Assembly: GCA_007134865.1 (NCBI GenBank)
Contig: SLJW01000095.1
Span: 1 to 51,026, forward strand
Source: Paracoccaceae bacterium
Lineage (GTDB): Bacteria > Pseudomonadota > Alphaproteobacteria > Rhodobacterales > Rhodobacteraceae
Direction of reading: 5' to 3'
DNA length: 51,026 nt
Positions 21,954 to 23,195 of the stretch are shown here, piece after piece (position 1 is the stretch's first letter; every line of letters starts with the position of its first letter). Below the pieces are notes generated by a model that worked only from the letters and a program-made list of their open reading frames with translations, ran no database searches and was not told where the DNA came from. Both the position numbers and the translations under genes were made by a program.

Positions 21954-22026
21954 GGTGCGGCTGTTGCATGGCAAGGCCGGATCTGCGGCAGACGCGTTCC
22001 TGTTGGCCTGCGGGACTGGCGTAACT

Positions 22027-22093
22027 GCGGTCTTATGTAGCAAACGCACCAAGGCCGGGAAGTTCAGCGCGGCATTCATGCTTCATTGCCTAG
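22027..22093 (+). repeat. left terminal inverted repeat (outer 30-bp plus inner box)
   Basis: Outer 22027-22056 identical to reverse complement of 22995-23024; inner GCTTCATTGCCTAG 22080-22093. Confidence 0.88.
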
Positions 22094-22123
22094 ATGCAAC
22101 TGGAGTCCACCAGTTGCATCTAG
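22090..22123. repeat. perfect 14-bp inverted repeat (hairpin) inside the cassette, downstream of ORF 2
   Basis: CTAGATGCAACTGG-agtcca-CCAGTTGCATCTAG; no U-tract on either strand. Confidence 0.8.
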
Positions 22124-22136
22124 ATTAAGCTCTGAC

Positions 22137-22547
22137 TTAGTTGGCAGGGGCCGACAATATTCCCGTAGTCATTTCAACTGCTTGGTTCCATAGGGCGAAT
22201 CCGCCATAGGCTAGAGCAACGACCGTAAGCCCCACAAAAACGTAGTTCCAAATAATGCGCCCGGCCGCCGCTTCGGCACGTTCTGCGGCCGCCCTTACTG
22301 TGCGCAAGTCGCTATCTACAGCATCAAGCCGAGTCCTTATCACCTCGCCCTGACTTGTTAAAATATTGCCGACCTTTTCGATCCCGGCGATGACCTCTGC
22401 GAACCGAGCGTCATTCTGCGCCCGTGTTTTTTCGTCTTGGGCGTCAACGTATTCCCTCATGGTGACCTCCACGGTTCCACCACCGGACCCACCAGAACCA
22501 GACGAACTCCCACCGCTGGTGGGGTACATGGGGATAGGTTCAGCCAT
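22137..22547 (-). CDS. cassette ORF 2: Gly/Ser-rich N-terminus, coiled-coil, C-terminal transmembrane helix, unknown function
   Basis: 136 aa MAEPIPMYPTSGGSSSGSGGSGGGTVEVTMREYVDAQDEKTRAQNDARFAEVIAGIEKVGNILTSQGEVIRTRLDAVDSDLRTVRAAAERAEAAAGRIIWNYVFVGLTVVALAYGGFALW...; start overlaps the stop of ORF 1 (ATGGCTGA). Confidence 0.7.
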   Translation of the reverse strand: MAEPIPMYPTSGGSSSGSGGSGGGTVEVTMREYVDAQDEKTRAQNDARFAEVIAGIEKVGNILTSQGEVIRTRLDAVDSDLRTVRAAAERAEAAAGRIIWNYVFVGLTVVALAYGGFALWNQAVEMTTGILSAPAN

Positions 22548-22857
22548 CTTTTTCCCCTGCATCTCCCGTTCCAGCGTCGCCGGTAGGCGGCACCTGAACG
22601 GCCAAGAATTGCTTTTCGATTCCTGCAAGCATTTCTGCTAAAACTTTGTGTAGTTGAATGGCGTCGGCTGGGTGCAATGTAACGGCCGCGCGCAAAAGCG
22701 GCGTCATTGTGTTCGGGATAAGTTCGCAGAACGCGATCCTGACCCCGGGCTGGCCAATCGTTATGTAGAACTTGTTCGCGCCTGGAGCCGGTCCGGCAAA
22801 GGCCGCAGCCAACTCGTCTTGTGTGACTTCTTGGCGAATCTTTTCCGCGTCGCTCAT
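22540..22857 (-). CDS. cassette ORF 1: small soluble protein of unknown function
   Basis: 105 aa MSDAEKIRQEVTQDELAAAFAGPAPGANKFYITIGQPGVRIAFCELIPNTMTPLLRAAVTLHPADAIQLHKVLAEMLAGIEKQFLAVQ; RBS-like GGGAG 6 nt before ATG. Confidence 0.7.
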   Translation of the reverse strand: MSDAEKIRQEVTQDELAAAFAGPAPGANKFYITIGQPGVRIAFCELIPNTMTPLLRAAVTLHPADAIQLHKVLAEMLAGIEKQFLAVQVPPTGDAGTGDAGEKDG

Positions 22858-22880
22858 CCGCAACTCCCGTAACCGCAAAC

Positions 22881-22909
22881 AGGCTACGTAAACATATAGA
22901 AAGAGTCAA
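22881..22909 (-). promoter_or_regulatory. candidate sigma70-type promoter for the cassette genes
   Basis: Minus strand TTGACT (22909-22904), 17-nt spacer, TAGCCT (22886-22881), ~24 nt upstream of ORF 1 ATG. Confidence 0.45.
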
Positions 22910-22959
22910 TTTTTCATCCTCCGCGCCGGGACCTGTGTGTACAGTGTCGCTGGTTAACG

Positions 22960-23024
22960 CTAGGTAATGAAGCGTACGCTCCATAGCTGGCTTCGGCCTT
23001 GGTGCGTTTGCTACATAAGACCGC
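22960..23024 (-). repeat. right terminal inverted repeat (outer 30-bp plus inner box)
   Basis: Outer 22995-23024 perfect inverse of left end; inner box read on minus strand GCTTCATTACCTAG (22973-22960), 13/14 identical to left inner box. Confidence 0.88.
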
Positions 23025-23066
23025 GTAAGTGCCCGTGGCGGGCCTCGCGGACCGCGCCTCCGGCGG

Positions 23067-23088
23067 GAGTATTTGGGGCAAGATGAAA
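23067..23088 (+). repeat. recurrent intergenic motif, copy B
   Basis: CGCCTCCGGCGG-GAGTATTTGGGGCAAGATGAAA; compare copies at 16642, 36083, 45465. Confidence 0.6.
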
Positions 23089-23195
23089 GCGGGTTTGAGC
23101 GGGTCTGCCTGCCGGGGCGGCAAATTATCTGGTGGAGCCGTTCGGGCGCTTGGCGTAGTTTGGGCGCAAGTTTGGAGCGCAGCGACTCGGACCGG

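Follow-up and report, generated by a model that had tools for sequence, protein, structure and literature searches.

A probable transposase-less derivative of an IS1595-family transporter IS between ribE and scpA in a Paracoccaceae bacterium

IS231A belongs to the IS4 family. MIC231 of Bacillus cereus, a mobile insertion cassette (mic), has been reported to be mobilised in trans by IS231A (PMC3913671). IS that carry passenger genes are termed transporter IS (tIS), and ISNha5 is an example from the IS1595 family (PMC11891212; PMC8496243). As cited in these two papers, a regulator is the passenger of ISNha5 (Siguier et al., 2009). The IS1595 family itself is known for 8-bp target duplications and a zinc ribbon (PMC8101967). 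Both the IS1595 tIS and the mic are known kinds, and the element described here resembles both.

The window, that is, the whole stretch of 51,026 nucleotides analysed here, comes from contig SLJW01000095.1 of a Paracoccaceae bacterium. Between the housekeeping genes ribE and scpA, it contains a 996-bp element (22028-23023), which is very probably a non-autonomous, transposase-less, mic-like derivative of an IS1595-family tIS. Two IS-like ends, gene cargo in the place of a transposase and a target duplication are all present, as in MIC231, and mobilisation in trans is proposed for both. The partners are different, since trans-mobilisation is reported for IS231A, whereas the partner of the window copy would belong to the IS1595 family and its action in trans is putative. 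The intact relatives of the element resemble the tIS in their IS1595-type transposase with a zinc ribbon, 8-bp duplications, inverted ends and adjacent passenger genes. They differ, however, in carrying a conserved DUF6471 gene and in having two slots for cargo, and the window copy has no transposase. Short IS1595 elements on plasmids of Tritonibacter scottomollicae (NZ_CP136707) and Limimaricola variabilis (NZ_CP139696) are also similar, with ends near CGGTCTTAGGTAGCAAATGCACCAA, 8-bp duplications (GAGGCACT, CAGCAGCT) and a transposase about 60-62% identical, but they are 1.1-1.5 kb long and lack the two-slot cargo plan.

Ends, target duplications and relatives of the element

A first-pass annotation, made from the letters of the window, had described a perfect 30-bp inverted repeat, abutting 6-bp direct repeats (GTAACT/GTAAGT) and an interior with two genes and no transposase. 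The repeat is exact and in fact covers 31 nt (22027-22057 and 22994-23024, 100% complementary), and the interior does hold two minus-strand genes, a transposase being absent. The duplication had to be corrected to 8 bp. The tips of the element were placed by alignment with 27 other end-pairs, and a perfect 8-bp duplication lies right outside the same tip in 23 of them; therefore, the tips in the window are set at 22028 and 23023, and the duplication reads CGTAACTG/CGTAAGTG, with seven of the eight bases matching. The family consensus of the terminal repeat is CGGYCTTATGTAKCAARCGCACCAA. The G+C content of the element is 54.8%, compared with 63.2% for the whole window, and is the lowest of any 996-nt stretch in 50-nt steps. 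The features of the element are listed in Table 1.

Table 1. Features of the element and its borders (window positions)
Feature	Position	Strand	Basis or remark
Left target-site duplication copy, CGTAACTG	22020..22027		Set by the tips of the relatives; 7/8 versus the right copy
Left terminal inverted repeat, CGGTCTTATGTAGCAAACGCACCAAGGCCG	22028..22057	+	Exact repeat and alignment with relatives
DUF6471 remnant, last 23 codons and stop (GKFSAAFMLHCLDATGVHQLHLD*)	22057..22128	+	PF20075; protein and DNA similarity
Left second box, GCTTCATTGCCTAG	22080..22093	+	Inside the coding sequence of the DUF6471 remnant
14-bp perfect hairpin	22090..22123		Between the convergent DUF6471 remnant and gene A; -27 kcal/mol, z -5.5
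Cargo gene A, 136 aa	22137..22547	-	ORF call; Gly/Ser-rich N-terminus, coiled-coil-like middle, C-terminal membrane segment (by inspection)
Cargo gene B, 105 aa, DUF3467-like	22540..22857	-	ORF call; PF11950 E=0.022, below cut-off
Right second box, GCTTCATTACCTAG on the minus strand	22960..22973	-	Treated as private to the window copy
Right terminal inverted repeat	22994..23023	-	Exact repeat and alignment with relatives
Right target-site duplication copy, CGTAAGTG	23024..23031		One mismatch versus CGTAACTG

Relatives were sought in 37 congeners and in 397 genomes of the bacterial family of the host, almost all of them from different genera. In a DNA search of the latter, the ends alone were matched, often as inverted pairs about 3 kb apart. 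With the consensus as the search pattern (up to 2 mismatches, the reversed pattern serving as control), the ends were detected in 41 of the 397 genomes, about one per genus, versus none with the reversed pattern, and in 3 of the 37 congeners. One congener, G025, contains an intact 3.3-kb element (L117) with a perfect duplication. The exact end had no match in genome_contigs, where the 28-base pattern was too strict (private ...AAGGCC form plus GGTC), and the element DNA had none in the plasmid collection.

The 27 end-pairs besides that of the window were taken from genomes and viral contigs. An IS1595-family transposase of ~320 aa, with the DDE_Tnp_IS1595 domain and an N-terminal zinc ribbon, is encoded by 25 of them and is interrupted in two (L069, L121); no gene of the window copy is of this type. 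The transposase models, which were run on the L056 copy, gave E-values of 5.5e-37 for DDE_Tnp_IS1595 (PF12762) and 2.5e-13 for Zn_ribbon_IS1595, and 142 bits for the NCBIfam model IS1595 (NF033547, cut-off 75). The proposal of a cargo-carrying non-autonomous cassette with transposon ends holds: the ends are found again in about 41 genera, and full-length relatives exist with a transposase between the same ends. The family, which had been left unassigned, is IS1595, as given by that transposase. Since the window copy lacks a transposase, its own membership follows from its ends and its descent.

The targets are AT-rich and roughly palindromic, for example GAAATATC, GATATTTG and CAGATCTG. Many insertions are found in targets of the GATATTTG/GAAATATC type (flanks of L056, L060, L061, L066, L070, L119, L123, L126, L127 and L129), and several of these adjoin a G+C-rich intergenic motif (CCTCCGGCGGGGATATTT...) that is repeated in these genomes. 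A version of this motif is also present in the window, 30-70 bp to the right of the element (about 23053-23093). Complete cargo-carrying elements occur on viral contigs as well (L074, L077, L079 and L080), with perfect 8-bp duplications in L079 and L080.

Plan of the intact copies, internal deletion and mobility

The intact copies are 2.3-3.9 kb long and follow one common plan. With the transposase leftward, the order is end, small variable ORF, slot 1, transposase, DUF6471, slot 2 and end. The first ORF (~110-155 aa) starts 60-100 nt inside the end and is of at least two sequence types (MQDKTI... and MEHTIFGLIKKRGEIAGQ...). The DUF6471 gene matches PF20075 (1e-31), and a literature search returned no mention of DUF6471 by name. 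Dispensable passengers inside the ends, the mark of a tIS, are found in both slots. Slot 1 contains DUF3800, SocA/Panacea, DUF4258 plus HTH or similar genes, or little. In slot 2, most genes encode membrane proteins or proteins of ~280 aa that fall into several recurring families; one slot 2 combines an IrrE-type peptidase with a neighbouring membrane protein. Toxin-antitoxin (TA)-like genes recur in slot 1, such as the DUF4258 plus HTH pair of L067 and L122, a similar pair in L070, SocA/Panacea in L066 and an IrrE-type peptidase-like gene in L118.

The order in the window, namely left end, DUF6471 tail, slot-2 genes and right end, equals the intact order minus its left part. Both protein and DNA comparison show the DUF6471 remnant fused directly to the left end. 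The remnant is 45-70% identical in protein sequence to the DUF6471 C-termini of about 16 other elements, and its DNA shares 74% identity with L056 across 61 nt and 80% with L068 across 41 nt. The comparison thus shows an internal deletion: slot 1, the transposase and the bulk of DUF6471 were lost, the final 23 DUF6471 codons came to lie against the left end, and both ends and slot 2 remained. The order of the parts is the main evidence for such an origin, and the junction illustrates how a transposase-less passenger cassette arises from a full tIS. A repeat-bounded cassette without an assignment is thus explained, ordinary in kind and well resolved in detail. The hairpin between the remnant and gene A is probably a bidirectional terminator.

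A second, independent deletion derivative is L070 (1548 bp), which has the perfect duplication CAAATATC. Of the intact plan, it retains the first ORF, both slot-1 genes and the 21 final transposase codons, and lacks DUF6471 and slot 2. That is, L070 is the complementary case to the window copy, with the opposite cargo slot retained.

By analogy with the family, the two ends (~25-30 bp each) would be bound by a transposase given in trans. The cassette would then enter an 8-bp target, AT-rich and roughly palindromic, and this target would be duplicated. The insertion between ribE and scpA probably occurred after divergence from the close relatives without the element. In the host genome (3.08 Mb in 271 contigs, 95.6% complete), the element is present as a single copy with no further matches, and neither protein search nor Pfam model detected an IS1595 transposase, the G025 element serving as positive control. 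Therefore, movement would need a helper, and the window copy is presumably stranded now. The first-pass annotation had considered mobilisation in trans plausible; nothing detected in the host genome could provide it at present. As complete relatives are carried on viral contigs, a helper could be brought in by a phage or a plasmid.

Could the transposase have been lost in place instead? A full-length IS1595 tIS would then have inserted here and, by an internal deletion, become a dead remnant that never moved as a cassette, to which we give somewhat less than an even chance. The single copy, the mismatch in the duplication and the lack of a transposase in the genome all agree with such a loss, and no second copy with the deletion junction of the window was found in the 37 congeners or the 397 family genomes. 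However, 30 nt of each end are free of mismatches and neither cargo ORF is broken, a state that would not outlast long decay, and the duplication around L070, likewise a short derivative, is perfect. Several points count against the preferred reading of a mic-like cassette: the duplication has one mismatch in the window and none in most relatives, no exact empty site was found, and the deletion could, as far as the sequence goes, have followed the insertion of a full-length element in place. The copy is single and no other copy with this cargo was found; movement after the deletion is therefore hypothetical, and one copy does not separate it from deletion in place.

Cargo genes and the ribE-scpA interval

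The cargo is a two-gene accessory module, composed of a DUF3467-like protein (gene B) and a membrane protein with a coiled-coil-like stretch (gene A), in which the last 8 nt of gene B are also the first 8 nt of gene A. Neither gene matched a family above cut-off in Pfam, PHROG, PADLOC or NCBIfam. Gene A shares 38% identity across 134 aa with a gene in L055 and weakly matches the slot-2 gene of L060; no viral relative of it was found. Gene B is rare (2 of the 397 family genomes). It has a relative on one viral contig (L141), and none in genome_contigs, plasmids or phages at the sensitivity used. Its predicted structure, helix-three strands-helix, is of modest confidence (mean pLDDT 74.5); the model gave no significant fold match in the PDB or among viral models, and a relative with a solved structure was sought and not found. 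The closest A-B pair belongs to another genus (G412), where it lies beside groES without the ends, with 47% identity for gene B and 38% for gene A. A literature search for DUF3467 gave one passing mention only.

Because other slots in the IS1595 clade hold TA-like genes, our working guess is that the cargo may be a small membrane-linked stress, defence or TA-like module. A broader proposal, which we regard as rather unlikely, is that the clade would be a modular two-slot platform in which small accessory systems (TA-like, membrane, defence-like) are exchanged repeatedly and from which cassettes without a transposase are shed, the window pair being an undescribed two-gene stress or anti-phage module spread by them. 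Occurring in about a tenth of the sampled family genera and on viral contigs, the clade is a natural set for the study of trans-mobilisation and for the discovery of accessory systems in its slots.

The ribE-scpA gap is 26-84 bp long, without the element, in 22 of the 24 congeners measured. The earlier claim that removal of the element rejoins the ribE and scpA sides cleanly holds only loosely, in that congeners have this short element-free gap. After subtraction of the element and one duplication, about 238 bp unshared with the relatives still remain in the window, and the flanking 66 and 164 nt have no match to the intergenic DNA of the relatives. Consequently, the empty sites looked for in relatives yielded no exact one; the nearest relatives have a short element-free gap.

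It could also be supposed that genes A and B are a native accessory operon of this interval, the repeats being incidental or acquired later. All three carriers of a DUF3467-like gene among the 37 congeners (the window genome, G008 and G033) have it in the ribE-scpA gap, and G028 has TadE/G-like together with larger Tad-type genes there (L136, 918-3082, by inspection), so the interval may be a gain hotspot. However, the pair in G008 (L012) and G033 (L015) is a distant DUF3467-like/membrane pair on the opposite strand and without the ends, its gene B being only 20-27% identical. Furthermore, the nearest homologue of gene B (47%) is at another locus in another genus, the nearest relatives of the window have no A-B pair, and genes A and B of the window are linked to the transposon by the DUF6471 tail. 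A native operon is thus improbable. A gain hotspot is the simplest reading of the interval, and the coincidence of the three carriers itself is left without explanation.

The inner inverted box and other IS1595-type sequences

The first-pass annotation had also noted a second inverted box, GCTTCATT(G/A)CCTAG, at each end. The box is indeed present at 53 and 51 nt from the ends, in inverted orientation with 13 of 14 positions matching, and none of 200 shuffles gave a match as good, which makes simple chance unlikely. It is not a family feature: no box with at most 2 mismatches occurs in the terminal 200 nt of the 27 other elements, and comparison with these relatives revealed no repeated transposase-binding boxes at each end. 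In addition, the left box is DUF6471 coding sequence. Multi-box ends of the Tn7-like kind were rejected on these grounds, and we treat the box as private to the window copy; the good match of the right box to the left one is unexplained. A two-box-ended transposon of unassigned family, with a transposase binding several sites per end, for which the paired boxes would speak, is scarcely credible, since the transposase between the same ends is of the IS1595 type and the duplication measures 8 bp rather than 5.

Two other kinds of IS1595-type sequences were observed. On the viral contig IMGVR_UViG_3300037882_001744 (L076, 4194-4298), there is a 105-bp near-palindromic, MITE-like mini-element with both IS1595-type ends, which has no genes and no target duplication. 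The congener G021 contains about 12 loci (e.g., L143) of a different IS1595-type transposase, which scores 72 bits to PF12762 and is not accompanied by the ends studied here.
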